From: Pseudosulfitobacter sp. DSM 107133 | GTDB lineage: Bacteria > Pseudomonadota > Alphaproteobacteria > Rhodobacterales > Rhodobacteraceae | DNA: 64,000 nucleotides | NCBI RefSeq assembly: GCF_022788695.1 | Contig: NZ_CP085155.1 | Coordinates: 62,001 to 126,000, forward strand | Direction of reading: 5' to 3' | Part shown: one piece after another, positions 1 through 26,342 of the stretch | How the letters are laid out: every line of letters begins with the position of its first letter | Numbering within the stretch: the first letter of the stretch is position 1 | Made by a program: the position numbers and the translations under genes | The notes under the pieces: model-generated | Seen by the model: only the letters and a program-made list of their open reading frames with translations | What the model was told of the DNA's origin: nothing | Database searches by the model: none

Positions 1-3000
1 CAGACCCAGATCGCGCTGGATCTGCGCGACCGCATTCTGGCGTCGGATGATGCACCCGGAGCGCTTGTGGCCATCGTGGCCGATCCGAACCTGTGGGTTG
101 ATTTCTCGCTTGCGGGGCTGGAACAGGCGGGCATCTTGCGCGCCGAAGGCGACATTCCCCCGATCCGCGAGCGGCAGGAAATCCTGTCACTGATGGCGAC
201 ACTGGCCTCGGGGGTTCTGTTTGGTCCGGCGGGTCAGGATATTCGTTCGGACGGTGACATTCTGGGCTTCTTCGAACAGTTGCGCACGCTGTACGGCCAC
301 GACGAAACTCTGATGGCCGATATCGAATTCATGGATCCGCGCGAAAGCGATTGCTACACGGGCGAAATTCCGGTGCCTGCCCTGCCCGAATTTGATGACT
401 ATAATATGGGCCTGAGCAACGAGACCCATTTCGAAGCGGTGCGTATCTATTCGCCGTGGGTGCCATTCGAGGATCGCGGCGCGGCCCTGCCCGAAGATTT
501 CCTGATCAACGGTCCGGCGCCGGTGGATGGCTCGGGCTTTGAAGCGCTGAATTTTTCCGGCTACTTTGCCGATCCAGGGAATTCGGGGCGGCTTGCCTCG
601 ATGAACGGGCCGCAAACCTTCGAGACAGAGGGCTGGCTGCCCAGCACCGAAGCGCTGCCCTATACCATCAAGTTTGAAAACGACGGTGAATCCAGCGCAT
701 GGGCAAACCAGATCGAGATTGTCACCCAGCTTGACGACGATCTGGACCCGCGCAGCTTCCGGCTGGGTGACATTCGTATTGGCGATATTACCATCGACGT
801 GCCGGACGGGCGCTGGTTCTATACTGACGAGATTGATTTTACCGATACGCTGGGCTTTGTGGTGCGGGTCAGCGCCGGGGTTGACCTGTTTCAGGACCCC
901 GCATCGGCGCGTTGGGTGTTGCAGGCGATCGATCCGTTGACCGGTGAAAAGATTCAAAGCACCACTGCCGGGCTGTTGCCGCCCAACACCGATCTGGGCA
1001 AGGGCGCTGGCTTTGTCAGCTATACGGTGAAACCCGCCGAAGATGTCGAGACCGGCACCCGCATTTCGTCCTCTGCGCGGGTCGTGTTTGACACCGCCGC
1101 CCCCGAAGACACGCAAGAGCTTATTCAGGTGGTCGATGGTGCGGCCCCCACAACCCGCATGACGGCCGATCAGATCGAAGGCACTGACAGCTATGACGTA
1201 GTCTGGACCGCACAGGACGATGCGGGCGGGTCGGGGGTGAAACACGTCACGATCTATGTTGCGACCGACGGCGGCGACTTCAAGATCTGGCAGCGCAGGC
1301 TTGAGCAGGCCACGGGCCAGCTGGTCTTTGAAGGCGAGGCCGGCAAGACCTATGAATTCCTTGCGCTGGCCACCGATATCGCGGGCAACCGCGAACAGCC
1401 ACAGGACGGGTCGGCGGTTACGTCGGATGGCCAGCCGGTCAATCTGGGTGCCACGGCTGCGGTCGAGGGCACCACCGCGCCGAATTTCGGCATAGCGCCC
1501 GAACCGGTGATCCAGCCTGTCACCAATGATCTGTTCCGCATGGCGCTGGACAATGTCCCCTCGGCGGCCCCGCTCAGCAACCTGCCCGAGTTCTCTCAAG
1601 TGCTGAGCCCCTTCATCGGCACGTCGTTTGCGACAGGGTTCCAGACCTCGCAGGCCGGTATCGGCCCGATGGCCATTCTGGAACGTTCGAACGGCGATAT
1701 TCTGGTGTCGGGTGGGGTCAATCGCGGCTCGATCTTTGTGTTTGGGGCCGAGGGCGGCACCGCGAACACCGAAACGCTGCTGGTGACGCTGGACGAGCCG
1801 GTGTTCAATCTGGCCGAAGACGCGGCTGGCAATATCTGGGCCACCACGGGTGGCGGGGCGCTGTTGCAGATCGACGGCAGCAGCGGTGCGGTTCTGGGGC
1901 GTTACGGCGACGGTCTGACATTGGGGCTGGCGATCGAAGAGGCGACCGGGCTGATCTATGTCGGTACAAATTCCGGCATCGTGACCTTTGATGCCGTCGC
2001 CAAGACCTTTACCCAATGGAGCCGCGACGAAGGTTTGCGGGTTGGCGCGCTGGCCTTTGACGATCAGGGCACGCTTTGGGCGGTGACATGGCCGGACCGC
2101 GCGCAGGTCGTCAGCTTTACCGAGCGCAAACGTGCCGAAACACGGTTGGAGTTCAGCAGCCAGATCGATTCTATCGCCTTTGGTCAAAAAGGAACCGCTC
2201 TGGCGGATATGCTGTTCGTGTCCGCCAACACGGGTGCTGTGTCCGGCACCGGTGAGGCTGCCGAGGGTTCGGCACTGACGATGGTGGATCTGGAAACCCT
2301 GCAACGTGTGGACGTGGCGACAGGCGGCACGCGCGGCGATGTGTTGATTGCCACGTCGGACGGGCGTGTGCTGATCAGCCAGTCAAACCAGGTGGACGTG
2401 GTTGCGCCGTCCTATGCGCCCAGCGTCATTGCCACAAATCCACCTGACGATTCAGTGGTGCCGCTGCCGCAATCGGTGCTGGCGGTACGGTTCGATCAGG
2501 ACATGTTTGTGGGCGACCCAAATCTGGACACCTCGGTTCTGAATCTGGACAACTACACGCTGACCGGTGCTCTGAACGGGCCGGTTTCGCCCACGGCGGT
2601 GATCTATGACACGAACAGCCGCACCGCGCTGGTCAAGGTCGAAAATCTGGCGGCGGACACCTATACGCTGACGGTCAAGGGCAGCGTGGCGTCGTTGCAA
2701 GGGCTGCGCATGGGGTCGGATTACCAGACGCGGTTCCAGGGCATTCAGGACCTGTCTGCCTTTATCCAGATCGAGTTCGGGGCGACACGCTATAACCGGG
2801 CGCTGGGAACCGTGTCTTATGATGTGTTCCTGACCAACACCGGCGCAAATGATGTGATCCTGCCGGTGTTGCTGACGCTGGACCCTGAATCAGGCTATCC
2901 CGGTATCCCCGGCGATGCGCTGGGGCAGACGGATCAGGGATTGTGGCTGATTGACCTGTCCGCGACGCTGCCGCCCGATGGCCGTCTGGCCGCCGGTGCG

Positions 3001-6000
3001 TCGACGCGCGGCGAAACCGTGGCCATTGTCACGCCCAACCGGCAGCGGGTGCAGTTTTCGGTTGGCATCGCGGCCTCGACGGGGCCAAACCGCGCGCCGG
3101 TCATCACATCCGAGGTGCCGGAAACTGCCAAGGTTGGAGAGCCCTTCGTTCACCAGATTGTGGCGCAGGATCCCGATGGCGAGGCGATTGTATTCCACCT
3201 GCTGGACGGTCCCGAGGGCATGACGCTGGATGCGGCCACAGGAAACATCAGCTGGACACCGCTGGAAAACACCAGCGCCGACCAAGCCGTCACGGTGCAA
3301 GTCTTTGACGCGCGCGGCGCGGTGACGACCCAGCGGTTCGTGCTGGCGGTCGAGGGCGGCAATCAGGCCCCCGAATTCCTGTCGATCCCGCAGGAACTGA
3401 CAGCCAGCGAAGGCGACCTTGTCGAATTCGAACTGGTCGCGGCGGACCCTGATTTTGGGGATGTTGTCACATGGATCGACGATCTGCCCGAAGGGGCGGT
3501 CTATGATGCCGACCGCCGCGTGTTCTCTTGGCAGGTGGGCTATGATCAGGCCGGCACCTATGCGCTGACCGCGCGCGCCTCTGACGGATTGCGCGAAATT
3601 TCGTCGACGGTGAACATCCGTATCGCCCAGCAGGACCGGCCTGTTTCGTTGCAAGTGCCCGGCAACATGATCGCGGCCGAAGGCGACCGCATCCGGTTCA
3701 ACCTGCGTGCCGATGCCGAACCGGGCCTGCCGCTGTCCTTCGGGGTCGTCAATGACACGCTGCCGTTCGGGGCAAAGCTGAATGCGGCCACCGGCGAATT
3801 CGAATGGACTCCGGGCTTTACCCAAGCCGATACCTATACGGTGCTTTTCGCGGTCTCTGATGGCAAGGGTGTTGCTGTACGCGAAATGACCATCGAGGTG
3901 ACCAATGCCAACGGCGCGCCGGTCTTTGACAATTTCGACGGGCTTCAGGTGTACGAAGGGCAGCAATTTGCGCTGCGGGCCTTTGCCTTTGATCCCGACA
4001 ATCCGTTCTACGAACCCGGTTACCGCAATCTGGAAGACGAATTCACCGAAATCGGATCCGCGCCGAAAACCGTGCAGGTCGAGGTTGTCGGTGAGGTGCC
4101 GGACGGCGCTTCGTTTGATGCCGAAACATGGGAGCTGCTGTGGACTCCCGGTGCGGATCAGGCCGGAGACTACCAGATTGAATTCCGCGCAACGGATGAC
4201 GGGGACGGCACGGGAACGCCTGCGGTCACAACGCAAACCGTGTCCATTACGGTGCGCGAACTGAATCAGGCACCGGTGGTGTCAGAACCTGCCAACGTAA
4301 CCATCAACCGCGCCGAGGTGCGGGACATTCCGGTCTCGGCAACGGATGCCGACGGCGATCCGATCACCTTGCTTTTGCAAAGCGAATTGCCCGGTTTCCC
4401 GCTGCCGGATTTCATCAGTTTTGTTGACAATGGCGACGGCACCGGCGTGATCCGGCTGGCGCCGGGCGTCGGTGATCGTGGCGAACATGTGATCCGGCTG
4501 GTGGCACATGATGATGGTGGCGGTCAGGGCATCCAGCGCGGCGATCTTTATACCTTTGTCGTCGATGTGGTCAGCGACAATGAGCCCCCCGAATTTGCCT
4601 ATCAGGGCAATGTGGTGGCGGTTGCAGGCCAGCAGTTGCAGCTGGAGCTGAACGCCACCGATCTGGATCAGGACGCACTGCAATTTGCGCTGTCGGGCCT
4701 GCCTGCGGGTGCGGTGCTGACGGCTGATCCGCTGATATACGGGCGTGCGCTGCTGACCTGGACACCAACTGCGGCGCAGATCAGGACCCATCAGGCACAG
4801 GTCAGTGCAACAGATACAGGAGCCGACGGGCTGACCGATCCGGCCACGTCGACCTTGCAGTTCGGGATTGTGGTGCGGGCTGCGAATGTGGCCCCCGTGC
4901 TTGATCCTTTTGGTGTTATCAAGGGGCTTGAAACGCAACCCCTGTCGGTGACCTTCAAGGCACAGGATGGTGACGGCGACGCGCTGACCTATTCTGCAAC
5001 CGATCTGCCTGCGGGGGCCGCATTTGATCGCGCAACCGGCCAGCTGGACTGGACGCCGACGCCCAATCAGGCGGGCAGCTATCAGGTCAATGTGACGGTG
5101 TCGGACGGCAGTGCGCAAAGCACCGAAACCGTGACAATCGAGATCGGCGAACAGAACCGCGCGCCGGTCTTTGTGCCGATGATTGCGCAACTGGGCCGCG
5201 ACCGCGCCGAGATCAGGTTCAGCGTTGTCGCGGATGATCCGGATGGCGATGCGGTCGAACTGTCTGTCATCTCGGGTCTGCCCGAGGGGGCGGCGTTTTC
5301 TGTCGAGCGTGGCGAATTTGTCTGGATTCCGCAATATGACCAGACGGGCACCTATACGCTGACCCTTGCGGCGACCGACCCGTCGGGGCTGACGACGCAG
5401 ATGGCGGTTGATGTGATTGTTGCGGATGTAAACCGCGCGCCGGTGCTGCAAGCCTCTGACCGCGCTTTCCTGATTGGCGAGGAAAAATCCTTTGCGCTTG
5501 AGGCCAGCGACCCCGACGGCACGGCGCTGACATTCCGCGCGCTTGACCTGCCGGACGGGGCCGTTCTGGATGCCGAGACCGGAATAGTCACATGGACACC
5601 CGGACCGGCGCAGTCCGGTGATTACTATGTGACCTTCCTTGCCAGCGATGGCGACATCGAAGCGCGCCAGACCATCGTCATGCGTGCGTCGTTGCAGCCG
5701 ATCGCGCCGACGGTGCGGATCGAACTGACGCCAAGCTTTGCCGCGATACCGGGGCAGTCCGTGCTGGTGCAAGTGGTGGCCGACAGCCTGTCGGACATCA
5801 CCGGTGTGCGTCTGTTTGCGGACGGTGTCGCGGTTGCGATGGATGCTCAGGGCCGTGCGGTTATCACCCCCGAGGCTGCGGGCAAGATCCAGTTGCGGGC
5901 CGAAGCCACCGATGCGGATGGCGTGACGGGTGACGCGGAACTGCCGCTCAAGGTGCGCGACCCGTCGGATCGCATGGCGCCTGTGATCCTGTTCGAGGAC

Positions 6001-9000
6001 CTGCTGAGCCTTGCGCCGCTGGAAGGGGTCGTTGAGGTCGGCGGGCTGGTGACGGATGCCAATCTTGATTACTGGCGGCTGGAGCTGCGCAGTGCCGATG
6101 GCGCCACGCTGTTGCAGACCATCGGGTCGGGCGAGGAACAGGTTGGCGGCCTGCTGGGCGCCCTTGATACGCGCGCATTGCTGAATGGATTTTACAGCCT
6201 GAGGCTGGTCGCGGCTGATATTTCGGGCCGGATTGTGCGCGAGGATGTGCGCATCGAAGTGCGCGGCGACACCAAGACCAACCGCCATGTCACCAGCCGC
6301 ACCGACATGGTGTTCCAGCTGGACGGTGCCGCGCTGGAGATCACCCGCCGCTATGACAGCCTGTCCGGACCGGATCGCGATTTCGGCCTGTGGTCTGCCG
6401 GTTTCGATCTGGATCTGGACCTGAACGTGACCGCATCCGGGCGCGAGGCCTACGGGATTTACACGCCGCTGCGGTCGGGTGACCGGATGTATCTGACCAC
6501 GCCGGATGGCGAAAGGGTCGGGTTCACCTTCAAACCCGTGGCCGAACTGGTCGGCCCTGCAACATTCTATCGCCCTGAATGGGTCGCGGACAGCGGACAG
6601 GACTGGCAGATCCGGTCGGTTGACATGCTGCTGCGCAAATCCGGCGGGCGTTTCTATGCCTCGGCGGATTCATTGCCCTATAACCCGACCGATCCCAACA
6701 TCGGCGGCGGCCAGCCGTTCGAACTGAAATCGCCTGACGGGCGGACCTATTATGTCTCAAGCGGCGGGCGGGTTCAGGAAATCCGGCTGGGTGACAAGCG
6801 CCTGTTTGTGGGTCAAAGCGGGATCACCGCTGCAAGCGGCGAGGTGCTGTCGTTCCTGCGCAACGCCGAGGGGCTGATTTCGCGCGCGACCACGCCGGAC
6901 GGGCGGGCCCTGGTCTATACCTACGGCGAGAATGGCGATCTGCTGAGCGTGCGGGCCTTGGACGACGGGTCTGGCGCACGCTACGGCTATGCGGACGGGC
7001 GGCTTGTCACTGAAACAGAGATCGGCGCGCAGGGCACGGCGATCCGCTATGGTGCCGATGGCACCGTGACCCAGGCGCCGATTGCCGAAGATCTGGGCGG
7101 TTTGGGGCAAGTGACCGGACGGGTGATTGCCGCGCCGGGCGGCGCTGCGCAAACCTCGTATTCCCTGACGGTGCGCGACAGCGAGATTGCAAGCGCGGCG
7201 GGTGGCTATCTGATCGTGTCGCTGCGTACCAGCACCCAGGACACGACGCCGTCGCTGGCCGGTGCCAGCCTGCTGGGGCTGGAACGGGCCAACGGACAGA
7301 CCACGGCGCTGTATCGCATCGACACGGCCGGTTTGTACCGGCTGGACGTCAGCGGGGAGGCTGCCTTTGATCTGACCGTATCGGTTGCGGGCGACCTGAA
7401 TGCAGATGGCGCGGTGAACGGCACCGACAGTGACCTGCTGCGCGCGGCAGGCGCGGGCAGCGACATTGACGGAAACGGCACCACCGATGTTCTGGACCGG
7501 CAGGTGCTGAACGTCAACTTTGGTGTGCGGCGCAATGCGGCACCGGATGTGGCGGCGGTGTTGCCGGTGCCCTTTACCCACGTCGATCTGCCGGTCCTTG
7601 TGGCGCTGGACGACATTGCCACCGATCCCGACGGCGATCCGGTGTTCTTCCGTGTGTCCAGCAGCGAACATGTGACCGCGCGGTTCACGCCCGATGGCGA
7701 ATTCCTGCGGATCACGCCGAACCTTGGTTACAGCGGCGCTGCCAGCATCACGGTGGTGGCCGATGACGGCTTTGCCGCGACCAGCGAAATCACCCTTGAT
7801 ATCAATATCTCGGATGCAGCGCTGACCGAGCTGCAATTCCTCAAGCGGCGGTTCATCTTTGACAAGCCGGGCGAGGTGACAGATCTGGTTGTTGTCGGGC
7901 AGTTCGCGGATCAGTCCGATGTGATCCTGCCCTTCGACTATGTCACCGTGACCGCAGAGAACCCCGATATCATCAAGGTCAGCGGGTCGGGGTTGATCAG
8001 CGGGCTGGCCTATGGCGATACCTATATCAGCGCGGAACGGGGCAATGTTGCGGCGGCTACGGCGGCTTCGGTCGGCATTGCCGAGGATGGCAAGGGGGCG
8101 ATTGCCCAGTTGTTCGGTATCGACGCCTATCCCGATACGGTGACCATCCTGCCCGATGGCGGTTCGCGCCAGGTTGTGACATCGCTGGGCACCTTGGGTA
8201 CGCAGTTTATCGGCGGAGCCGAGGGCGTGGTTTATGTTTCGGGCAACCGTGACATTGTCACCGTGACCGAAGCGGGCCTGATCGAAGCGGTTGGCGCGGG
8301 CGATACCACGGTAACGGTCATTTACCGCGGGGCCGAAGAGGTGCTGAGCGTGACGGTTGCGCCGCCGGTTCTGGGCAACACCGCGCAGATCGGGGCCGAA
8401 GGCGGGGCATTGCGCACAGATGACGGCATCGAAGTTGCCTTTGGCAAGGGCCAGCTCAGCGGGTCTGCGACCGTGACAGTGACAACGCTGGGCGAAGCCG
8501 ATCTGGAAATCGCCGTGCCCCCGGATTTCGATTTTATCGGGGGGGCCACGCTGGACATCGCCGAAGGCACCTTGGACGGCACCATCCAGTTTGCGACGCC
8601 GGTGAACGGGGCAGCTGCGCCGGGCGATCAGGTCATTTTCTTTGTGCAGGATGATTTCACCGAGCGTACCAACGGCGAATACGGCAAGATCTGGCGCATG
8701 GTCGACAGTGGCACCGTTGACGAAAATGGCATTGCGCGCACCGCGTCGCCACCGTTCCCCGGCCTGTCCGAGCGTGGCAACATCATTGTCGCCAAAGCGA
8801 ACCAGCCGATGCTGGACGCGTCGCTGTATCTGCCCGCATTGGCGCGCGGTGCGGTGGCGGTCATTCCTGGCATGCTGATCGGCCTGGCCGTGGGTGGCCT
8901 TGGCGGCGCATTGGTGGGGCTGGGGCTGGTCGCCGGTGCCAGCTATGTCGGGTTCCAGATGACCCCGGCCAAGCAACGCATCGACGCCTATGCCGATTAT

Positions 9001-12000
9001 CTGGATGGCAAGGACTGGGCCAAGACACAGATCGAGGTTGAAGCGCCCGAGAACACCACAGGACGGTTGAACCTGACGGTCAAGGTGCCCGATACTGCGT
9101 TTTCGAACGCCCCCGGGGCCGCGCCTGCAATCAGCGAGGCAGCCGTGGCACGCAAGGCCGATGGCAGCGCCGAACTGCGGATCACGGGGTCGAAGTTCTT
9201 TTACGGCGCCAACAATCCGAACAGTGGAGAATTCGGCAGCAGGCTGCGCGATGGCAGGGTCAAATTCGATCTGGGTGGCCACGCGGTCTATGTCGCGGGT
9301 ACGCAATTCAGGGAAGTCGCAGAGAACCTGACCGACGAGGGCGGCACATTCGTGCTGGATATCCCCGACACCATTCTGGCGACCAAGGCTCGCATCACTT
9401 TCGAGCGCGCCGAACCCGGTGGTGCAGCGGATGCGGCTGGCAAGGGCGGCTGGAGCAGCACGAACAAGCCGACGTTCTCGCAAGAGATCAAGGTATCGAA
9501 CACGCGCGGATACGGGGTGATCGGCGGCACCAAACAAAATTCTGCCACCGGCATCCCAAGCCACACCATGCTTCAGGTGTTTGATATCCTGCCCGCCAAC
9601 GTCCCCGTGCAGGACGATCCCAACCCCAATGATGGCGTCTTGCCCGAAAAGACCGAGCTGGTGTCGGATGTCTATCTGTACAACGGTCTTGCTGCGATCG
9701 CCGGCTGGCCCAATGACGCTGTCGTCGCGGGGGATCTGTCGGCGGCTTATGTCGCGACCTATGATGGCATTGCTGTCGTGGATATGCTGACGCTGAAACA
9801 ATTCGACGTTGACCCCGAGACCGAGGGGGTCAACATCATCACGGTTCCGGGCAAGCGCGTTGACAAGCTGGCCCTGAGCGGGGACGGCAATTTCCTGTTT
9901 GCAGCGGGGCAGGGCAAGGTCTTTTCGATCGACCTGCGTCCGGGGTCTTCGGATTATCTGCAATACCGCCAGATCACGATTCCGATGCCGGATGACGTGC
10001 GTCAGGCCACCGGCGGGCTGATCAATGACATCGAACTGTCGGCAGAAGGCAAGAAGCTGTATGTTGCAGTGCCCTATGGCAACATCTTTGGCGACGGTGG
10101 CTGGGGCCGCAGCAATGGCACCAAGGGCGTGATCCATGTGATCGACGTGGAACGGCCCAAGGCCGATGCCACCGGTCCCACGACCTATCTGACGATCATC
10201 GAGACGCTTGAGGGTTATGTCGATCCTTATGACATCGCGGCCAGTTCGGATGAAAACAAGCTGGCCTTTGTCGCCCGTGGCGAACGGTCGGACGGGTTCT
10301 ACACGATCGAAGTCACCAACGCCGATCCGGCCAGCTATAGCGCCAATGTGCGCAAGCTGCCCTCGACGCTTGAAACAGGCGACACGTTCCGACGGTCGCT
10401 TGAGCTGAACAAGGGCAGCATCGGCGTGCGTTATAACGGCTACGTCATTCCCTATACGTCGATCCTGATTGACGACTATCTGCCGCTGACAAGCCAGCGC
10501 TATGATCTGGACATTCGCAACCCTGTGGCCGTCGAGATTGCGCCGGACCTGTCCTATGCCTTTGTCGCGGATTACGACCTGTCGCGCTATCTGACCTTTG
10601 GCGACTCGGTGCTGGCCTACGAGATCGAGCGGCGGCACGAACTGGGCAACAATATCGGGCTGATCCGCAATCCGTTTAACATGGAAAAGAGCGATTGGGA
10701 CAAGCTGAGCAAGACCTATAACTATGGCTCGGCGGCCCATGTGGGCACCACAATCCCGATCCCTGACCAATATTTGCAGGAAATCGTGTTGCGTCCCGAC
10801 GGCACCCAGCTGATTGCCAACTTCCGCAAGTCGGGGGCGCTGGTCACGTATCAGGTCGATAAACTGATCGAAGCCTCGGACAAGGGGTGGGACGGCAACA
10901 AGATCACCCGCAACCGGACCTTGCCGGTCGATCTGGAGCGCGGGCTCTACGGGATTGGCGACGCAGTTGTGCGCGAAGAGATTTTCGGCGATCCGCTGGA
11001 TGTCGTGTTTTGGGGGCGTGGTCTGGATTTGCAGGTCGAGGTCGGGCTGAAACTGGTCAATCCCAAAGGCGAGATTGTCGCCAACGGCGAGGGTGCTCTG
11101 CCGCTGAAGTTCGAGGTTCACCTTGATCCGCGCAAGATCGGCAAGACCCAATTCCTGATGAACCTGTTTGTCAGCACCCAAGCGCCGGGCGAAGGGTTGT
11201 TCCCGCAGGATCCGTATCGCGAGCGCGGTTTCTGGGGCCACTCCAAGCCGGACGCGCGTGAGGATTACCACGAATTCAGGCTGATCAATTCGCCCGGGAA
11301 CAACGCGAATTTCGCCTTCCTGTCGGGCAAGTATTACACGCTGAAGGCCGACGGAACGATTGACCATACCAAGACCCGCGATCTGAAGCAGGCGGACGTC
11401 GCTGACGGCGAAAAGCCCGAAAATGCCATTGTGATCGAGGTCGATCCCGGGTTCCGGCGTCTGCTGACCGGCAGTCAGGATTACTACTGGGGCGTCGAAG
11501 TGCCCAGTGCAGGCGGCACGCTGCGCGACTCGGTCAAGTTCCGTACGGCCAAGGTGACGCCCGAGGATACGCCCTATTCCACGGTCAACGTCCTGACGCA
11601 CGGTTTTCAGGTCGAAGGCATCCTGCCCGACTACGCCAACACCCCCCTGAATGAAGACACGCTGAAAGCCTGGCTGGAAAACGCCGAGGTGATTTCGCAA
11701 GCGTCGGGTGGTGGTGTGATCCTTGTTTATAACCGTCAGACCGGCAAATTCCACGAATACCGGACCGAAGAGGTCGATGGCAGAAAGATCAACAAGGACA
11801 CGGCCTATGATATCGGGTCTGTCCCCAAGGGGCAGGCGATTACGCTGGTCATGGATTGGTACCGCGAGAGCAACCTGTCAGACAGCGGATTTTCGGAAGC
11901 GGCGGCAGATGCGTTCTTTGCGTCGCTGGTGCAGTTGAATCAGGACAGCGGTAACAAGCTGTTCAAAAGCCCGGTTCACTTTATCGGGCACAGCCGGGGC

Positions 12001-15000: not shown

Positions 15001-18000
15001 AACGGCTATTTGATGAGCCCTGTTCTGGTCACGGGCATGCGCCGTCTGCCGTCCGGCCCGGATGTGCAGGACTGGACCGGCGACCCTGTCGCAGACACGA
15101 CAACGCAGGGCAATGCGGGTCTTGGGGCGCAGCCATCCGCGCAGGCCCGGCCCCCAGCGGCGACAGCCGCCGCGGTTGCAGCACGCGCCGCGCCGCCGAC
15201 CAATGCGCTGACCAACGGTGCGTTCACGGGTGGCACAACCGGCTGGACAACCTTTGGCACCGTGCAGGTGACCGATGACAAGGCGACATTGCGTGAAAGC
15301 GGCGGTACGATGGCAGGCCTGTCGCAAAGCTTTGTGCTGCCCGCAGAGGCCACTGCGTTGCAATTCACGCTAAGCGATCTGAACCTGCGGGCAACTGCGG
15401 GCACTGCGCCTGATGCCTTTGAAGTTGCGCTGTTTGACGCGGTCACCGGTCTGGCGGTTCTGCCCCAGATCGACGGGCTGTCGGGCACAGATGCGATCCT
15501 GAACATTCAGGCAGATGGTCGCCACTATGCGTCGTCGCCTGTGGGCATCACCGTGGTGGACGGCGATGTGATCGTCACCGTTGACCTGACGGGACTGGCG
15601 GTGCGTCCTGAAAGCGTGACGTTGACATTCGATCTGATTGGTTTGGGCGACATCGACAGCGCTGTCAGCGTCGACACCGTCCGCCTGTTGGGTCTCGCCG
15701 CCAACACCGCGCCCGTTGCGGTGGGCGAAAGCCTGACCATTGACGAAGACACACCGGGCGATATCAACCTGCTGGCAAATGACAGCGATGCGGAAAACGA
15801 TCCGCTTGTCGTGCGGATCGTTGGCGGGCTTGGCGCAGGGGCGCGGCTGGAGCCGGTGGGCAACGGGGTGTTCCGCTATACGCCCGCGCCGAATGCCAAC
15901 GGAACGGAAACGATCACATACCGGTTGTTTGATGGCGTGGCGCTGTCGGATCCGGTCGAACTGACGGTGACGATCAATCCGGTCAATGACGCGCCGGTGT
16001 TTGAAGACGTTCCCAACCGGTTCGTCAGCCAGAACGAAGAGGTCGTGATCCAGATTGTCGCCACCGACCCTGATGGCAACGATGCAGAAATTTCGATCTC
16101 GCTCGTGGGTGGCCCCGCAGGCGCTGTCTATGACGCCGTAACCGGTCAGCTCCGCTGGACCCCGACAGGTCCGCAGCGGGCCGAATTCGTCTTGCGCGCC
16201 GAAGACGGCGAAAATGCCGCGTCGACCCTGAGCTTTGTTCTGACGGCGCGGGCGGCACCTGTGCTGGCGGTTGCGAATATTGCGGTGACCGAAGGCACGC
16301 CGCTGTCGCAATTCGTGACGGCCACCGACGATGACACCCCGACGCCAAGCCTGCGCTTTGTCAAAATGTCCGGCCCCGACTGGATTGCGGTTGACCCGAT
16401 AACCGGCGCGGTGACCGGTGATACGACAGGGCAGGCGGGTGACTATGTTGTCACGGTTCGGGTCAGCGATCCTGACGGGCTGACCGATACGGCCAGCTTT
16501 GACGTGGCGGTGAACGCAGTGCCGCAGATCACGGTGGCAAGTGTGGTGCTGGTCGACGGCGACGCGCTGGCGCTGACCCCGCTGGTCGAGGATGCCGACA
16601 GCACGCCCGAGCAGCTGAGCTTTGCCAAGCTGTCAGGCCCTGACTGGATCAGCGTTGATCCGGTGACAGGGCTGGTTTCGGGGGCCAGCGACGGCCAATA
16701 CGGGTTGGCGTTGGTCGAGGTTGAGGTGACCGATCAGGACGGGTTGACGGATACGGCCAGCTTTACCGTGATGGTGCGCGCCCGCCCTGTCATCACCGCA
16801 GATGATATTTCGCTGATCGAAGGGGCCGCCCTGAGCCATTCCGTCAGCGCCACCGATTTCGACAGCCCCGACGACGCCATCCGCTTTGCCAAATTGTCAG
16901 GGCCCGACTGGATCACGGTGGATGCGGTGACGGGTGCGGTGACGGGCGACAGTGCGGGCCATGCCGGTGTGTATACTGTCACGGTGTCGGCGACCGACCC
17001 GGACGGGCTGAGCCGCGAGGCCTCCTTTGGCGTTGTTGTGAACGGGCCACCCGATATTTCGGCCAGTGACATCGCATTGCTGACGGGTGACCCTTTGGCG
17101 ATTGATTTGCCGGTTTCAGACCCCGACACTCCGGTGGGAGAATTGCGGTTTGCCAAGATCGCCGGACCCGACTGGATCAGTGTTGATGCCGTGACAGGTC
17201 AGGTAACAGGCGACAGCACGGGCCGGTTTGGCAGCTTTGACATCACGGTTCAGGTCACCGACCCCGAAGACCTGAGCGATCGTGCCAGCTTTACCTTGAC
17301 GCTGCGCGCGCCGCCGACCGCCGCAGTGACCGATGCGGTGTTGCGCGAGGGTGCGCCGCTGGACCTTCAGATTGTTGCCACTGACCCTGATGGCGCGGAC
17401 ACGGCGCTTGTCTATGCCAAGATTGCCGGACCCGACTGGATCAGCGTCGATGCGAAAACGGGGCGGGTGACTGGTGACAGTTCGGGCAATGCGGGCAGTG
17501 CGGCGGTTACGGTTTCGGTGACCGATGCCGACGGGCTGAGCACGCAAGCCAGCTTTATGGTCGACGTCAACGCGCCCCCTGTCATTGATGCGCTGCAAAC
17601 GGTGATTGTCGCAGGCCAGCCCTTGTCGCTGCCTGTGACGGCGCGCGACCCCGACGGCGATCCCGACGCGCTTGGGTTTACAAAACTGTCGGGGCCGGAC
17701 TGGATCACGGTGGATGCAGAAACGGGCCTGCTCAGCGGCGATACAAGCGGGCAGCCGGGGCCATTCACTGTTGTTGTTCAGGTGCGCGATGAAACCGGGC
17801 TGACCAGCCAGACCGACATTTCCGTCCGCGTTATTGCGCGCCCTGTGCTGACGGGTTCCAGCACCGTCTTGCTGGCGGGCGAAACGGTGCAGATCGCGCC
17901 GCAGGTGTCCGATGCCGACAGCGCCATCGCCGCATTGCGCTTTGCCAAACTGTCGGGGCCTGACTGGATCACCGTTGATCCGGCGACTGGTGTGATCGGC

Positions 18001-19944: not shown

Positions 19945-19968
19945 GCAAGACAGAAAGGCAGTCCAGAC

Positions 19969-20310
19969 ATGGCGAAATCCTCAAAGGATGACACATCCGA
20001 CGCGACCGCAGAACCGCGCGTGCAAGACACAGGCCCGGCCACGCGGCGTGTGCCGCCCAATCAGGTGTCATTTGATACATCGGATCTGAAAAGCACCTAT
20101 TGCAACGTCTGCAACGGGTCGAGCACGCAGGAAGAAGTGGTCATCAACTTTGGCGTCAACGACAGTTGGGACATGGGACAGGACAAGCTGAAGGTGCATC
20201 TTCACCACCGCATCGTCATGTCGCCCCATGCGGCAAAACGGTTGCGCGATATGATGAACCGCCTGATCGACGAACATGAAACGCGCTATGGCGCGTTGGG
20301 CGGCGGTTGA
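19969..20310 (+). CDS. DUF3467 family protein
   Basis: This 113-residue protein has no signal peptide or membrane segment, so it is probably cytosolic. The core matches the DUF3467 pattern: Y-x-N-V-x-N, S-S-T-x-E-E-V-V-x-N-F-G, then H-R-I-V-M-S-P-x-A-A-K-R-L and a C-terminal helix ending near E-x-R-Y-G. The first 30 residues are polar and look disordered. There is a Cys pair (C-N-V-C) in the first conserved segment. It begins 24 nt after the giant gene and is followed 39 nt later by the GAF-HlyD gene, so it is almost certainly co-transcribed. DUF3467 has no established biochemical role that I know of. From context it could be a chaperone or adaptor for the giant protein or the SecA-like ATPase, but that is inference. 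Confidence 0.85.
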   Translation: MAKSSKDDTSDATAEPRVQDTGPATRRVPPNQVSFDTSDLKSTYCNVCNGSSTQEEVVINFGVNDSWDMGQDKLKVHLHHRIVMSPHAAKRLRDMMNRLIDEHETRYGALGGG

Positions 20311-20349
20311 TCGTGATCCGGTGACGGGCACAGGAATGAGGGGCCGAAC

Positions 20350-22215
20350 ATGAGCGTCTCCAGCGGTACACTGACCAACGAGGGGGCGATCCCTCTGGAT
20401 CAAAGCCTGTGGTCCAGTTTTGCGAACGCCCGGACCGATGGCGCGCAGGTGACCGGCTGGCTGGCGGTTCTGGTCAATCGTATCCCTGCCGCTGTGCTTG
20501 GTGTGGTTTTCGAGGCCGACCATGGCGCGGGCGCGATGGTGCCGGTGGCGGTTGTTCCCGACCCGCGCCGCGATCTGGGGGCGATCCGCGCAATCACCGA
20601 GCAGGTACTGGGATCGGCGCGCCCCGCCACATTGCCCAGCGAAGACGGGTTGCACATCAACATCGGCTACCCTTTGCGGGGTGCGTCAGGGCAGGTTGAA
20701 ACTGTCATCGCGCTTGAGCTTGCCACATCGGACAGTGCGGTGGCGCAGTCTGCCTTGCGCGATATTCACTGGGCCTCGGGCTGGATCAAGGCGCGCATCT
20801 GGGAAACGCAGGCCCATGACGACGCCGCCCGCCTGCGCAGATCCGGTGTGGCGCTGGACATTCTGTCGCTGGCATCGGAACACGCCAAGCCCGAAGCCGC
20901 CGCCATGGCCATCGTGAACGAGGCGCAAAGCCTGCTGGCGTGTGACCAGATTTCAATCGGTCTGATCCGCGGCGCACGCACCGCCCCGCGTATCAAGTTG
21001 CTGGCGATGTCCTATTCGGCGTGGTTTCGCAAACGCTCGGCCCTGGTCGAGGCGCTGGAAACCGCGATGGAGGAAGTGTACGACCAGAACGCAACTGTCG
21101 CATGGCCGCCGGTCGCGGGAACGGCGCGCGCGATTTCGGTGGCCCATGCCGATCATGTGCGTTCCAGCCGCACGGCCCATATGTTGTCGGTGCCGCTGAG
21201 CGACGAAAGCGGGCCTATCGGGGTGATGACCTGCGAACGCAGGGAGGACCGTGCCTTTGACAGCGAAACCCATCTGACAGCCGAAGCCATTGCAGCGCTG
21301 ATCGGCCCTGTTCTGGAGCTCAAGCGGCGCAACCGGCGCTGGTTTGGCGGGCGGCTGGTGGACGGGACGGTGCACGTTCTGGGGGTTCTGCTGGGTCCGC
21401 GACGGCTCAGCTGGAAATTGCTTGCGCTGGTTCTGATCGGCCTTGGGGTGGCTGCGGCCACCGTGACAGGCCCGTTTCGCATTCAGGCCGATGCGGTGTT
21501 GCAGGGCGCGCAAAAGCGCGTGGCCTCGGCCCCCTTTGCGGGCTACATCGCGGAAGCACCCTATCGCGCCGGTGACACTGTGCGGGCGGGAGATCTTCTG
21601 GTGCGGCTGGACGACACCGACATGGTGCTGGAAGAACTGCGCTGGCGGTCCGAGATCGACAGGCTGATTTCGCAGGTGCGCACGGCGCAGGCCGACTATG
21701 ACCGGTCGCAGGTCGCGCTGCTGGAAGCGCAGATCGAACAGGCCCGCGCCCAGCTGACCCTTGCCCAGGCCGAGCTGTCGCGCACGCGGGTTCTGGCGCC
21801 GATGGACGGGCTGATCGTATCGGGTGACCTCAGTCAGAAACTGGGCGCGCCGGTGCAACTGGGCGAGGTGCTGTTTGAAATTGCCCCTGTCGACCAGTTT
21901 CGCATCGACATCTATGTGGACGAACGCGATCTGCGGCATGTGTCCGAGGGGCAGACGGCGCGGTTGATCCTGACCGGCCGCCCCGAAGGTGCGCTGGCGA
22001 TCCGCACCCAGCGGATCACCCCGGTGGCCGAGGCCCGCTCGGGTGCCAATACGTTCAGGGTCGAGGCCGAACTGGTCGATACACCGCCCCCCGGCCTGCG
22101 TCCGGGCATGCAGGGGCTGGCCAAGATCGACGCAGGCGAGGCGCTGGTCGCCTGGGCCGCGACACGGCGGCTGGTGGACTGGTTGCGCGAAACGGCCTGG
22201 ACCTGGCAGCCCTGA
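20350..22215 (+). CDS. GAF-domain and HlyD-type membrane-fusion hybrid protein
   Basis: The protein has 621 residues. The N-terminal half (about 1-330) is soluble; residues 165-330 look like a GAF domain. One hydrophobic segment follows at about 358-377. After it comes a periplasmic-adaptor architecture: a lipoyl-like half-motif (GDTVRAGDLLVRLDDTD, near 408), a coiled-coil hairpin (about 425-475), the second half-motif (A-P-M-D-G-L-I-V-S-G) and a beta-barrel region (about 500-600). The expected topology is cytosolic GAF, one TM helix, periplasmic adaptor. HlyD proteins normally bridge an inner-membrane pump and an outer-membrane channel, but no ABC or RND pump lies nearby. The ATG has a purine-rich site upstream. 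The stop is separated from the next ATG by one base, indicating translational coupling. Confidence 0.85.
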   Translation: MSVSSGTLTNEGAIPLDQSLWSSFANARTDGAQVTGWLAVLVNRIPAAVLGVVFEADHGAGAMVPVAVVPDPRRDLGAIRAITEQVLGSARPATLPSEDGLHINIGYPLRGASGQVETVIALELATSDSAVAQSALRDIHWASGWIKARIWETQAHDDAARLRRSGVALDILSLASEHAKPEAAAMAIVNEAQSLLACDQISIGLIRGARTAPRIKLLAMSYSAWFRKRSALVEALETAMEEVYDQNATVAWPPVAGTARAISVAHADHVRSSRTAHMLSVPLSDESGPIGVMTCERREDRAFDSETHLTAEAIAALIGPVLELKRRNRRWFGGRLVDGTVHVLGVLLGPRRLSWKLLALVLIGLGVAAATVTGPFRIQADAVLQGAQKRVASAPFAGYIAEAPYRAGDTVRAGDLLVRLDDTDMVLEELRWRSEIDRLISQVRTAQADYDRSQVALLEAQIEQARAQLTLAQAELSRTRVLAPMDGLIVSGDLSQKLGAPVQLGEVLFEIAPVDQFRIDIYVDERDLRHVSEGQTARLILTGRPEGALAIRTQRITPVAEARSGANTFRVEAELVDTPPPGLRPGMQGLAKIDAGEALVAWAATRRLVDWLRETAWTWQP

Positions 22216-22216
22216 G

Positions 22217-24367
22217 ATGGCTGACACCTATCTTTCAACCCTGTGGTATCGCGTCGCTGACTTGCGGCCGCGCCTGCGCAGCCACGTCAAGGTGCACCGC
22301 CACCGCTATCGCGGGCAGGCGTGGTATGTGCTGCACGATCATGCGTCGGGGCGGGTGCACCGGTTTACGCCGGGGGCCTATCTTGTCATTGGCCAGATGG
22401 ACGGCGGGCGTTCGGTTGACGATGTCTGGCAATCGCTGGCGGACAGCTATGACGAAGACGCGCCGGGTCAGGATGAAATCATCCAGCTTCTGTCACGTCT
22501 GCACCAGAATGACCTGATCCAGTACAAAGGGTCGCCCGACGTGGCCGACCTGCTGGAACGCTATGACAAGCAATCGCGCCAGTTGTGGAAACAGAACCTG
22601 ACCAACCCGGTGTCGTTCCGCGTGCCGTTGTGGGACCCCGACAGGTTTTTGACCGCCACAATGGCAGCTGTGCGTCCGCTGACGGGCTGGTTCGGGTTGG
22701 TCCTGTGGCTGATCGTCGTGACCGCAGGGCTGGTGACGGCGGCGCTGCACTTTGACGAGCTGACCAGCAACCTGTCAGACCGGCTGTTGGCCACATCGAA
22801 CATTGCCATCACATTGGTGACCTACCCGCTGCTCAAGGCGCTGCACGAACTGACCCACGGCTATCTGGTCAAGGCGCGCGGGGGTGAGGTGCGCGAGATG
22901 GGGGTGATGTTTCTTGTGTTCTTTCCCGTTCCCTATGTGGACGCCTCAGCAGCTGGCGCGTTTCGCAACAAATGGCACCGTGCAGCGGTGTCGGCAGGTG
23001 GGATTTTTGTCGAAACCTTTGTGGCGGCCATCGCGGTGATTGTCTGGGCGCAGGCCGAACCGGGCCTGCTGAGCGCGGTGGCCTATAACCTTGTGTTGAT
23101 CGGCGGGCTGTCAACGATTGTGGTCAACGGCAACCCGCTGCTGAAATTCGATGGCTATTATGTGCTCTCGGATCTGATCGAAAGCCCGAATTTCAGCACC
23201 CGCGCCACCCGCTATTGGGGCTATCTGATCCAGCGCTACCTGTTCGCTGCGCGCCAGCTGAAAGAAGAGATAGCCACCTCGGGCGAACGGGTCTGGTTCG
23301 TGATCTATGCGCCGCTGGCCTTTGTTTATCGCATGATGGTGATGCTGGGGATTGCACTGTTGGTGGCGCAAAAGGCGTTCATCATCGGGGTCTTGATTGC
23401 GATTTGGTCGGTGTTCAACGCGGTGGTCAAACCGGCGGTGAAACATATCCGCCATGTCATGACCTCGCCGCAGCTGCGCAAGGTGCGCAGGCGGGCAACA
23501 ACGCTGACCTTCGGAACCATAGCGGTGTGCGTGGGTGTGTTGATGCTGGTGCCCCTGCCCCTGCGGACCGATACAGAAGGGGTGATCTGGTTGCCCGACA
23601 ACGCCTATGTCCGTGCGCGCACCGACGGTGTGGCGCAGGGTCTGACGCTGGCAACAGGCACGCAACTCGAACAGGACGCGATCGTGGCCCGGATGCGCGC
23701 GCCGCGCGTCAGCGCCCGTATCGACGTGCTGTCTTGGCGTGTCGAGGAATTCCGCCGCCGCCTGAGCGCGACCGAGGTGCAAGAGCGCAGTCAGACAGAA
23801 GTGGTGCGGTTGCAACTGGCCGAAGCGCAGGCCGAACTGGTTCGCGAAATGGACCGTGCAGCCCGGCTTGATGTGCGTACATCGGTTGGGGGCAGGTTTG
23901 CGCCGGTCCTGCCCGCCAGCGAGATGGACAGCCGACATGTCGCAGAGGGTGATCTGATCGCCTATGTCCTGCCACCCGCCGCCACAATTGCGCGCGCGGT
24001 CGTCACGCAGGATGACATCGCATTGGTGCGCGACAGGTTGCGCGGTGTCGAGCTGAAGCTGGCAGGGCATCTGTCGGACCGCTTCAGCGCAAGGGTGTTG
24101 CGCGATGTTCCAAGTGCAACCACGACCCTGCCCAGTGCCGCGCTTGGCCCTGCCGGGGGCGGGCGGTTTCTGACCGATCCCGGTGATCCCGACGGGCTGG
24201 CAGTGATAAACGAAGTGTTCCTGCTGGATCTGGCCCTGCCGCCGGAACTGGCGCAGGCCCCCTTTGGCGCGCGGGTGTTTGTGCGTTTCGACCATGGCTA
24301 TGAACCCGCGGGTTTGCAGATATGGCGACGTATGCGGCAACTGTTCCTCAGAACGCTCAATGCCTGA
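22217..24367 (+). CDS. PqqD-like / M50 site-2 protease-like / HlyD-like membrane protein
   Basis: I take the ATG one base after the preceding stop; longer in-frame starts lie inside that gene. The product has 716 residues. Residues about 25-100 resemble PqqD/RRE winged-helix domains. Membrane helices follow. The M50 zinc motif HELTH is at 210-214 and the second M50 motif N-P-L-L-K-F-D-G-Y-Y at 306-315, so both metal-ligand regions are present. A last helix lies near 428-448. Residues 450-716 have periplasmic-adaptor character: a helical hairpin and beta-rich parts with a G-G-R-F-x-P-V motif. M50 enzymes cut substrates in or near the membrane. RRE domains bind leader peptides in peptide-modification systems, so recognition of a substrate leader is plausible but inferred. 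The stop overlaps the next gene by 8 nt. Confidence 0.85.
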   Translation: MADTYLSTLWYRVADLRPRLRSHVKVHRHRYRGQAWYVLHDHASGRVHRFTPGAYLVIGQMDGGRSVDDVWQSLADSYDEDAPGQDEIIQLLSRLHQNDLIQYKGSPDVADLLERYDKQSRQLWKQNLTNPVSFRVPLWDPDRFLTATMAAVRPLTGWFGLVLWLIVVTAGLVTAALHFDELTSNLSDRLLATSNIAITLVTYPLLKALHELTHGYLVKARGGEVREMGVMFLVFFPVPYVDASAAGAFRNKWHRAAVSAGGIFVETFVAAIAVIVWAQAEPGLLSAVAYNLVLIGGLSTIVVNGNPLLKFDGYYVLSDLIESPNFSTRATRYWGYLIQRYLFAARQLKEEIATSGERVWFVIYAPLAFVYRMMVMLGIALLVAQKAFIIGVLIAIWSVFNAVVKPAVKHIRHVMTSPQLRKVRRRATTLTFGTIAVCVGVLMLVPLPLRTDTEGVIWLPDNAYVRARTDGVAQGLTLATGTQLEQDAIVARMRAPRVSARIDVLSWRVEEFRRRLSATEVQERSQTEVVRLQLAEAQAELVREMDRAARLDVRTSVGGRFAPVLPASEMDSRHVAEGDLIAYVLPPAATIARAVVTQDDIALVRDRLRGVELKLAGHLSDRFSARVLRDVPSATTTLPSAALGPAGGGRFLTDPGDPDGLAVINEVFLLDLALPPELAQAPFGARVFVRFDHGYEPAGLQIWRRMRQLFLRTLNA

Positions 24368-26342
24368 GGTTCAGGGAATATTGGGATTTGCCCGCCCGCG
24401 TTTGGGGGCCAGCCCCTATGCAGAACTGGCAGATCCGAGGGGCAACAAGGTTGATCTGTGGCTGGAGCGCAGATTGGGCGCGCTTCAGGCACGGCTGCCG
24501 TTTGGCCGCTGGCGGTTGTGGCGCAGGGCAGGGCGGGTTCTGGCCCGCGAAGCCGCTTTGATGGATCTGGACGATGACGCGTTGCGTGCGCGCACGGATG
24601 TGTTGCGGGCGCGGCTTTTGCGCACGCCCTCTGACAGCGCAGCCATCGAGGACGCTTTTGCACTGGTCCGCGAGGCGGGCGCGCGCTGTCTGGGCAAACG
24701 TCTGTACCGCGTTCAGATCATGGCGGCGCTGGCGCTGTTCGAAGGACGTCTGGTTGAAATGGCAACGGGCGAGGGCAAGACGCTGAGCGCGACGCCTGCG
24801 GCGGTGGTTGCGGCGCTGATGGGTATGCCGGTTCATGTGGTTACGGTGAACGATTACCTTGCGGCCCGCGATGCCAGCGAAACCGAACCTGTGTACCAGT
24901 TTTTCGGTCTGACCGTCGGCGTGATCGACAGCGAACAGGACCCCGCCGAACGTCGCAAGGTTTATGCCTGTGACGTCACCTATGTCAGCAACAACAACAT
25001 GACTTTCGACTATTTGCGCGACCGGATCGGATTGCGCGGGCGGCGGGGGCGGGCACGTCGGCGCACCGGTGTGCTGACCGGGGGCGCCGGGCCGGGCGAT
25101 CTGCTGCTGCGGGGGCTGGGCTTTGCGATTGTGGACGAGGCCGACAGCGTTTTTGTCGACGAGGCGCGCACGCCGCTGATCCTGTCGGCCACGGCCGATG
25201 ATGCCGAAGCGGCGCAGCTTTATGCCTCGGCGCTAGATGTGGCACGCCGTATGCGTGAACCGGTTCATTTCCGGATTGACCGGATGAACCGCCACATTGT
25301 TCTGGAAGAGGAAGGCAAGGCATTTGCCGCCGAGTGGTGCGCGCCGCTGGGACGGATCTGGCGCGTGCGCCGCGCCCGCGAGGAGCTGATCCAGCAAGCG
25401 CTTTCGGCGCTGTATCTGTTTGAAAAGGGCCGCGACTATCTGATCCTCGAAGACGCGGTGCAGATCGTCGACGAATATACTGGCCGCGTGATGCCCGACC
25501 GCAGTTGGCAGGGCGGGCTGCACCAGATGATCGAGGCCAAGGAAGGTGTGGAAGTGACCGGGCGCAAGGAAACGCTGGCCCGCATCACCTATCAACGGTT
25601 TTTTCGCCGCTATCTGAGACTGTCCGGCATGACAGGGACAGGTATGGAACTGGCCGGAGAGTTTCGTGACACTTTCAACCTGCGCACCGTGCGCGTGCCG
25701 CGCAACCGCCGTTTGCGCCGCCGTCATCTGGGCACGCGGATGTGTCGGACAGATGAGCGCAAATGGGATCGGGTCGCAGATCGTGTTGCCGCGCTGCACG
25801 CGCGGGGGCTGCCGGTCCTGGTGGGGACGCGGTCGGTCGAGGCGTCGGATCGGGCCGCCGCAGTGCTGATCGCACGCGGCCTTGATCCTGCCGTGCTGAA
25901 TGCGCGACAGGACGCAGAAGAGGCTGACATAATCTCGCGCGCGGGACTGCGCGGGGCGATTACGGTTGCGACCAATATCGCCGGGCGGGGCACGGACATA
26001 GCGTTGGGCGAGGGGGTCGAGGATTTGGGCGGGCTGCATGTGATCCTGACGGAATTTCACGAAAGCTCCCGGATCGACAGGCAACTTTACGGGCGCACCG
26101 GCCGACAGGGCGCACGGGGGGTCACGCAGGCGATTGTCAGTCTGGAGGACGAGCTGTTCTCGCGGTTTGCGCCGCTTTTGCTGCGGGTCGTGCGGGTGCT
26201 GCCGGTCTGGCCGCTGACCGCTGTTCTGCGCATCGTCGCCCAACGTCGCGCCGAGGCCGAACATGCCACAACGCGGCGTGAACAGACCGAGATGGACCGC
26301 AAGCTGGAACGCTCTCTGGCCTTTACCGGACCGGTTGAATAG
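24360..26342 (+). CDS. SecA-like DEAD-box ATPase, truncated form
   Basis: The ATG at 24360 overlaps the previous stop. The product has 660 residues, against roughly 830-900 for housekeeping SecA. The motor motifs are intact: Walker A A-T-G-E-G-K-T (Lys 140), V-T-V-N-D-Y-L-A-x-R-D, DEAD box at 259-262 followed by S-V-x-V-D-E-A-R-T-P-L, the PPXD-region motif D-E-x-T-G-R-V-M, L-S-G-M-T-G-T, T-N-I-A-G-R-G-T-D-I (538-547) and G-R-T-G-R-Q-G. Only about 75 residues follow the last motif. The helical wing, the two-helix finger and the C-terminal zinc tail of normal SecA are therefore missing. It is unlikely to be the housekeeping SecA. As the last gene of this operon it is the only visible energy source for export of the giant protein. 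Confidence 0.88.
   Translation: MPEVQGILGFARPRLGASPYAELADPRGNKVDLWLERRLGALQARLPFGRWRLWRRAGRVLAREAALMDLDDDALRARTDVLRARLLRTPSDSAAIEDAFALVREAGARCLGKRLYRVQIMAALALFEGRLVEMATGEGKTLSATPAAVVAALMGMPVHVVTVNDYLAARDASETEPVYQFFGLTVGVIDSEQDPAERRKVYACDVTYVSNNNMTFDYLRDRIGLRGRRGRARRRTGVLTGGAGPGDLLLRGLGFAIVDEADSVFVDEARTPLILSATADDAEAAQLYASALDVARRMREPVHFRIDRMNRHIVLEEEGKAFAAEWCAPLGRIWRVRRAREELIQQALSALYLFEKGRDYLILEDAVQIVDEYTGRVMPDRSWQGGLHQMIEAKEGVEVTGRKETLARITYQRFFRRYLRLSGMTGTGMELAGEFRDTFNLRTVRVPRNRRLRRRHLGTRMCRTDERKWDRVADRVAALHARGLPVLVGTRSVEASDRAAAVLIARGLDPAVLNARQDAEEADIISRAGLRGAITVATNIAGRGTDIALGEGVEDLGGLHVILTEFHESSRIDRQLYGRTGRQGARGVTQAIVSLEDELFSRFAPLLLRVVRVLPVWPLTAVLRIVAQRRAEAEHATTRREQTEMDRKLERSLAFTGPVE

Follow-up and report, generated by a model that had tools for sequence, protein, structure and literature searches.

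A SecA-like ATPase, an M50 protease and HlyD-type adaptors paired with LEPR-XLL giant proteins: a candidate export and maturation machine

Four tightly packed genes follow the gene of a giant exoprotein at this locus, which raises the question of whether their products act on the giant and carry it out of the cell. The window, i.e., the whole stretch of DNA that was analysed, comprises 64,000 nucleotides from Pseudosulfitobacter sp. DSM 107133; positions are those of the window unless prefixed with C2, which gives the position in the assembly. With a probability of roughly 0.7, the four genes and a third HlyD gene form a machine dedicated to the export and maturation of LEPR-XLL giant surface or secreted proteins. 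This reading draws on gene content, operon order, co-occurrence, copy-number matching, domain predictions and invariant catalytic motifs, all of which were observed.

The gene run and the giant protein

The window opens inside the giant gene, and the C-terminal 6,647 residues of the LEPR-XLL exoprotein are encoded at 1..19944 on the plus strand by a reading frame that is open at the 5' edge. Four genes follow on the same strand: an accessory DUF3467 protein of 113 aa (19969..20310; PF11950, 63.7 bits); a GAF-HlyD adaptor made of a GAF domain, one membrane segment (assigned by eye) and an HlyD/RND-type adaptor (20350..22215); a PqqD/RRE-M50-HlyD fusion whose single chain is predicted to hold a receptor for the leader, a protease of the site-2 type and a periplasmic adaptor (22217..24367); and a short SecA-like ATPase of 660 aa (24360..26342). 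The reading frames and the tight spacing given in the preliminary description were confirmed, with gaps of 24, 39 and 1 nt (i.e., at most 39 nt) followed by an 8-nt overlap. The fusion protein starts at the ATG at 22217, and a longer frame from 21989 is unnecessary. Pfam likewise recovered the domains that had been assigned to the partners, namely DUF3467, GAF with HlyD_3/HlyD_D23, PqqD, Peptidase_M50 (below cut-off) and SecA_DEAD. The AF2 model of the DUF3467 protein (pLDDT 74) gave no significant match in a fold search, and no Rfam family or tRNA was found in the window.

The giant gene begins some 18.3 kb before the window opens. In the assembly, its full frame extends from C2:43602, following a stop, to 81944, and the product has 12,737 aa if the TTG at C2:43731, which fits the leader best, is the start. 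Laminin-G, CARDB, putative-Ig and cadherin-like domains were found; RTX nonapeptides and LPxTG, which had been reported absent, were also absent (0) from the full-length protein. The N-terminus upstream of the window, proposed earlier as the place to look for a shared leader, does carry one: it scores 29.8 bits with the NCBIfam LEPR-XLL model NF012209 (cut-off 17), with E=3.1e-8 in a scan of the whole genome. LEPR-XLL has so far been known as a domain name, which two papers of the literature searched each use a single time.

The LEPR-XLL leader consists of a basic stretch followed by [ED]-x-L-E-P-R-x-L-L-S-[AG]-[DE]. For leader statistics, a pattern fixing E, R and a small residue was matched at 61 of 82 loci, and the remaining 21 were read separately; the 82 are the best leader per genome, and at least three of them represent the same leader twice (L055/L229, L058/L232, L119/L243). 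None of the 61 leaders had a 12-aa mean above 2.0, the mark of a Sec-type hydrophobic core in the Kyte-Doolittle scan, which was the only scan applied. In the sample of 248 genomes of the same family, one per genus, the longest frame headed by such a leader has 17,824 codons. A conserved C-terminal sorting signal was considered and rejected, as 33 machine-adjacent giant C-termini and the two of this genome, compared by eye, share no universal ending; endings are common within subgroups. We know of no export route that has been assigned to LEPR-XLL giants.

Upstream of the giant gene and divergent from it lies a third HlyD adaptor gene (C2:42677-43528), whose product shares 38% identity over 239 aa with the HlyD belonging to the second copy in this genome. 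This corrects the tally of two adaptor arms in the preliminary description. Beyond it come genes of a TRAP/TAXI transporter, a pair of two-component genes and an ABC of the importer type. A type I ABC exporter directly upstream of the giant, which had been named as evidence against a new system, was absent from the 9 upstream products scanned and from another 10 scanned; the ABC ATPases nearby accompany BPD_transp_2 importer permeases. A TolC-type pore was likewise absent from the products scanned beside the window cluster, and loci of a sister type described below do have TolC.

The fusion protein and the short SecA

In the fusion protein, Pfam placed PqqD over its cut-off (26.5 bits) and Peptidase_M50 under its own (16.6 bits). 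Residues 16-103 (22262..22525) are predicted to adopt a PqqD-like winged-helix fold of the RRE type, i.e., a leader-binding fold, although the fold match is tied by chains that are no leader binders. The HExxH metalloprotease motif (H210, E211, H214; 22844..22858) is unchanged throughout an alignment of 22 sequences that includes this one, as are N304, N306, P307 and D312 downstream, and thus both hallmarks of an M50 site-2 protease, HExxH and the downstream Asp, are present. Residues 445-706 (23549..24334) form the HlyD/MacA-like periplasmic adaptor part. The best NCBIfam match is the daptide leader protease NF041824 (145.5 bits), whose cut-off of 300 was not reached. As in RiPP leader handling by RRE domains and the daptide protease, a PqqD/RRE-type fold precedes an M50 part with HExxH; here, in contrast, the leader belongs to a protein thousands of residues long, and protease and adaptor are parts of one chain.

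The short SecA-like protein contains NBD1, the preprotein cross-linking domain and NBD2 (Pfam SecA_DEAD, SecA_PP_bind and P-loop_SecA, without SecA_SW). Its alignment spans residues 34-551 of the SecA chain 7xha_A, and its C-terminus falls where the canonical helical scaffold begins; the ATPase motifs are kept and the C-terminal part that engages SecYEG is absent. A helical-scaffold pattern was found in none of 70 relatives. Accessory SecA2 systems dedicate an additional member of the SecA family to particular large surface proteins, and the window system likewise has a second SecA-family ATPase; however, this one lacks scaffold and wing and scores below the cut-offs of the four SecA2 models that it matched (TIGR03714, 471/930; TIGR04397, 497/1085; TIGR04221, 405/725; NF012136, 384/1100 bits).

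The foremost alternative, which we regard as unlikely, confines these proteins to maturation: the giant would leave by canonical Sec or by type I secretion, and RRE-M50-HlyD, GAF-HlyD and SecA would cleave, anchor or regulate at the membrane. Such a role would suit the daptide protease match and the GAF domain, which suggests sensing, but three adaptors plus an ATPase of the translocase type exceed what a protease would require. Sec would find no hydrophobic core of its type in the leader, and type I secretion, whose adaptors (TIGR01843) are available in 230 of the 248 family genomes, would have to handle a giant without RTX repeats and giants without a common C-terminal ending. Type I secretion was also rejected as the explanation because its adaptor match does not discriminate and so gives no account of LEPR leaders in 23 of these genomes.

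Co-occurrence of the machine with LEPR-XLL leaders

At named loci the genes behave as one unit: GAF-HlyD adjoins the M50 gene in 66/66 loci with at least 2.5 kb of upstream flank, and SecA does so in 70 of the 72 with enough flank. The set of four genes named in the preliminary description thus holds for M50, GAF-HlyD and SecA, but not for DUF3467, found in only 28 of 62 named loci, nor for SecA in the sister type.

The expectation that a giant protein would accompany these genes was borne out for the M50 gene and LEPR-XLL giants. In the family sample (M50 at 285 bits or more, LEPR at E<=2.2e-5), each occurred in 23 genomes, with both, one, the other and neither in 21, 2, 2 and 223 (Fisher p=4e-26); at E<=1e-3 for LEPR, 22 of 24 genomes had an M50 match. 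Furthermore, copy numbers were equal in 21/21 family genomes, six of them 2:2, with at most four M50 candidates scored per genome. A phylum sample of 329 genomes contained an M50-HlyD relative in 39 of 40 LEPR genomes (E<=1e-3; p=1.3e-24), and every one of the 36 genomes whose M50 reached 277 bits also had LEPR at E<=0.1. Among 148 genomes sampled from the phylum to which a Desulfobulbaceae genome belongs, LEPR (E<=0.1) was found in 7 of 8 genomes with M50 above 320 bits vs 12 of 140 others (p=1.4e-6). LEPR was present in 44 of the 49 named genomes with the machine; marine Rhodobacteraceae with both include Salipiger abyssi and Jannaschia seohaensis. The open-frame count of 51/61 includes leaderless frames that may be no substrates (L186, L188, L201, L207, L211).

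It is improbable that giants and machine are merely co-inherited on one genomic island with no joint function. The two are mostly adjacent: 24 of 29 family LEPR matches lie on the same contig as an M50 gene, and of these pairs 23 are on the same strand and 20 within about 3 kb. The locus is also patchy, being present in 4 of 41 genomes, this one included. Linkage of this kind, however, would not be expected to yield matching copy numbers, nor a pairing that extends over Alpha-, Beta- and Gammaproteobacteria and records titled Desulfobulbaceae, Myxococcota and Nitrospirales, with the giant preceding or following the machine depending on the locus, nor leader subtypes that mostly go together with machine subtypes.

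A sister type, found in Azospirillum and on E. coli plasmids, has TolC, LEPRxxFDGA-like leaders and no adjoining SecA. Because SecA was not found in any of 14 sister-type stretches (13 loci; L256 and L264 left out), PqqD-M50-HlyD and not SecA is the common denominator. Asp directly follows LEPRxLL in 5 of the 82 leader loci, and four of these five are in genomes whose M50 matches all belong to the low-scoring sister class.

A single machine acting in trans on many distant giants was also considered and rejected: leaders and M50 genes share contigs in 7 of 11 multi-leader named genomes and do so only partly in 4, with the contigs and coordinates of one genome (G602) identical to those of another (G058). 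In G592 and G612, leaders outnumber M50 genes.

Relation to known systems and proposed function

Type I secretion by HlyB-HlyD-TolC shares HlyD-type adaptors and, beside the sister type, TolC; to our knowledge, RTX type I systems have no counterpart of the RRE-M50 part. A variant type I system with SecA in place of the ABC transporter and with recognition otherwise as in HlyBD-TolC would agree with these likenesses and with the scan of products flanking the window cluster, in which no ABC exporter appeared, but is very improbable given a conserved signal that is N-terminal instead of C-terminal, a giant without RTX and the RRE-M50 part. Such a variant is close to the proposal in the sections of PMC4452313 considered here, and it overlaps with the best explanation.

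The system had been called undescribed, which does not hold for the locus minus its substrate, published by Kamneva, Poudel and Ward in 2015 (PMC4452313). The portions of that paper considered here report, in Planctomycetota, a locus of unknown role with a secondary SecA_DEAD protein, GAF-HlyD, M50-HlyD and HlyD, without an ABC transporter and with M50 put forward as the pore. Its gene content recurs in the window system: SecA_DEAD without SecA_SW, M50-HlyD, GAF-HlyD and a further HlyD. PMC4452313 names no substrate in those portions, and its main text does not mention a giant, a leader, PqqD, an adhesin or DUF3467. Beyond what they contain, the LEPR link, the RRE-type domain, the SecA-less sister type and the E. 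coli members are added here, and the new element appears to be the substrate rule, i.e., the pairing of the machine with LEPR-XLL giants. The pairing suggests a purpose for the orphan secretion locus of 2015; a widespread secretion-like locus without a substrate in that account and the LEPR-XLL giants, once joined, both become testable.

In a dedicated export and maturation machine, leader binding, cleavage, secretion and ATP-driven translocation would be divided among the parts. The cytosolic PqqD/RRE-type domain of the fusion protein would bind the leader, the short SecA-like ATPase would feed the unfolded chain to the inner membrane, and the intramembrane M50 site would cleave at the LLSAD box or close to it. 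Guided by the three HlyD-type adaptors, the chain would then cross the periplasm to a TolC-type pore, with the M50 membrane helices (or SecYEG) as the putative channel and TolC as the putative exit. If so, RRE-type leader recognition would no longer be confined to small peptide products but would reach surface proteins of megadalton size, and a SecA motor would work without its SecYEG-engaging part.

Whether the machine also defines a secretion-system class that has no name yet is, in our estimate, an evenly balanced matter. Giants of roughly 4,000-18,000 residues would dock on RRE-M50-HlyD through a non-Sec leader, LEPR-XLL or LEPRxxFDGA, and exit by a tripartite conduit; the truncated SecA would be added for the longest substrates, and the sister branch may need no dedicated ATPase. 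The median substrate length was 10,375 aa in the SecA branch (n=24) vs 4,054 aa in the sister branch (n=7).

The five-gene run and its surroundings

As the preliminary description stated, five genes lie in one tight run: the giant frame comes first (window 1-19944) and is followed by the genes here called the machine, namely DUF3467 (window 19969-20310), GAF-HlyD (20350-22215), PqqD-M50-HlyD (the M50 gene; 22217-24367) and the short SecA (24360-26342). Along the run, neighbouring genes are separated by 24, 39 and 1 nt, and the last two overlap by 8 nt. On contig C2 of the 5.2-Mb source assembly (G000), where the window spans 62001-126000, the giant frame extends from C2:43602, and the protein is 12,737 aa long if a TTG at C2:43731 is taken as its start; the exact start is uncertain because no ATG lies between the upstream stop and the leader. 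Laminin-G, CARDB, putative-Ig, Big_9 and cadherin-like domains were matched by Pfam in the giant, and neither RTX nonapeptides nor LPxTG were found in it.

A third HlyD-type adaptor is encoded divergently ~200 bp upstream of the giant (C2:42677-43528). Beyond it lie TRAP/TAXI transporter genes, a two-component pair and an importer-type ABC (9 products scanned), and downstream of the machine (10 products scanned) lies a LacI/ABC-importer/Gfo-Idh cluster. No T1SS exporter was seen among these 9 upstream and 10 downstream products, so the type I ABC transporter directly upstream that would have refuted the initial proposal is absent from the region scanned. The downstream cluster (window 26436-33516: LacI regulator, ABC importer, Gfo/Idh and xylose-isomerase-like genes) is an ordinary catabolic one, outside the system. 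The window also encodes a two-partner secretion pair (53757-62034), consisting of a ShlB/FhaC-type transporter and a 2,144-aa TPS exoprotein, and, directly behind the exoprotein gene, a protein with a caspase domain (Peptidase_C14) and Sel1 repeats (62031-63932).

The same genome carries the system a second time, as a divergent copy (C2 ~317-363 kb) with GAF-HlyD, M50, a SapC-type gene, SecA, HlyD and a giant frame of 12,957 aa that carries its own leader. The extra HlyD of this copy shares 38% identity with the third adaptor over 239 aa, and its SapC-type gene, at C2:319530-320366, is homologous to the SapC gene of the fetched locus L170 (PF07277, scanned in L170; L170:12294-13067). A SapC gene was observed within or adjoining several machine loci. 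A canonical SecA is encoded on contig C1.

The LEPR-XLL leader and its association with the machine

The preliminary description had proposed looking for a shared leader at the N-terminus of the giant, and one is present: NF012209 (NCBIfam LEPR-XLL) scores 29.8 bits there, above its cut-off of 17. Across 61 leaders, at most 59 of them distinct, a basic stretch (with a median of 7 Arg/Lys vs 2 Asp/Glu per 30 residues) is followed by [ED]-x-L-E-P-R-x-L-L-S-[AG]-[DE], some positions of which were fixed by the extraction pattern itself; the remaining 21 of 82 loci were examined separately. A Kyte-Doolittle scan revealed a Sec-like hydrophobic core in none of the 61. Asp follows LEPRxLL in five of the 82 leader loci, four in genomes whose M50 hits all belong to the low-scoring class and one in Methylorubrum podarium.

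Of 559 confirmed loci, the best 80 were tallied, each gene being counted only where the flank was sufficient: GAF-HlyD adjoins M50 in 66/66, SecA is present in 70/72, an extra HlyD in 43/62 and DUF3467 in 28/62; record titles name Alpha-, Beta-, Gamma- and Deltaproteobacteria, Desulfobulbaceae, Myxococcota and Nitrospira. In the family sample, which took a single genome from each genus (248 in all), 24 of 29 strong LEPR hits have an M50 gene on the same contig, 23 of these pairs being on the same strand and 20 within ~3 kb. At thresholds placed afterwards in gaps of the score lists (M50 >=285 bits, LEPR E<=2.2e-5), M50 was found in 23 family genomes, LEPR in 23, both in 21 and neither in 223 (Fisher 4e-26), and copy numbers were equal in all 21 co-positive genomes, six being 2:2. 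As a control, T1SS HlyD was found in 230 of the 248. Four family genomes are discordant: in G267 and G201 the machine lies on contigs of 12,992 and 4,713 bp, in G112 the leader lies on a 9,117-bp contig with a SapC-like gene adjoining, and in G152 the giant frame is broken and the M50 hit absent.

In the phylum sample (329 genomes), 89 had any M50 hit, 90 any LEPR hit (E<=0.1) and 72 both (p=1.3e-38); at E<=1e-3, 39 of 40 LEPR-bearing genomes had an M50 hit. A third sample comprised 148 genomes from the phylum of G607, a genome whose record is titled Desulfobulbaceae; LEPR was hit in 7/8 genomes with M50 >320 bits vs 12/140 others (p=1.4e-6), and in 3/8 vs 2/140 at E<=1e-3 (p=0.001). LEPR-only genomes at E<=0.1 (18/240 phylum, 10/211 family, 12/140 third) do not exceed the numbers predicted by that threshold itself (24, 21 and 14). 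The leader was found in 44 of 49 named genomes with the machine. Some observations run the other way: it was undetected in the other five, one of which has an obvious variant, and a few genomes carry leaders without the machine (G051, G152, G473, G715 and G768). Leaders also outnumber M50 genes in G592 (five LEPR hits) and G612 (seven), each with only two M50 genes, which are possibly one-machine, many-substrate genomes, and a Vibrio giant is described as having LEPR-XLL and RTX together (PMC10868602).

Prior work and proposed function

Altogether, the assignment of substrate and leader to the machine is well supported by comparative data and is directly testable. None of the papers found links the locus to LEPR-XLL, judged by title and abstract, but this absence is no proof of novelty because preprints and most subscription journals lay outside the search. 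The locus itself had wrongly been called undescribed: it was already in print in 2015, its broader biological role being called completely unknown by Kamneva, Poudel and Ward (PMC4452313). Because of that report, the system is grouped here with known tripartite, T1SS-related export; it may be a secretion class of its own. What is established for machine and giant is gene association and domain anatomy only. On the simplest reading, the leader would be received by the RRE-type domain and cleaved at the M50 site, and the chain would be driven by the SecA-like ATPase and guided by the adaptors to an outer pore.

A related type of locus

More distant M50-HlyD proteins, here called the sister type, adjoin giants of smaller size, and genes for TolC, a small adaptor and a second HlyD often lie alongside. 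No SecA match was found in 14 fetched sister-type stretches (13 loci), and DUF3467 was present in five. DUF4347 occurs in both sister-type giants scanned and in an Azospirillum annotation; L195, a SecA-type locus, likewise has one giant with this domain. Nine of ten sister-type giants examined carry a leader (none in L258), including LEPRMMFDGA, LEPRIVFDAA and PLEPRIMLDGN, and LESRQLFDGA in E. coli. Median substrate length in the family sample was 10,375 aa for the SecA type (n=24) vs 4,054 aa for the sister type (n=7; p=2.5e-4), and the greater length of SecA-type substrates is a lead only because some frames are broken or cut. The sister-type M50 gene was matched in 24 of 5,426 E. coli genomes, in 22 over >=80% of its length, and 21 of its 25 places are on plasmids; the remaining locus genes were read in one genome. 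The E. coli plasmid NZ_CP081687.1 (fetched stretches L246 and L248) carries a sister system, with no SecA in the stretch read and a 4,459-aa DUF4347/Ig-like giant.
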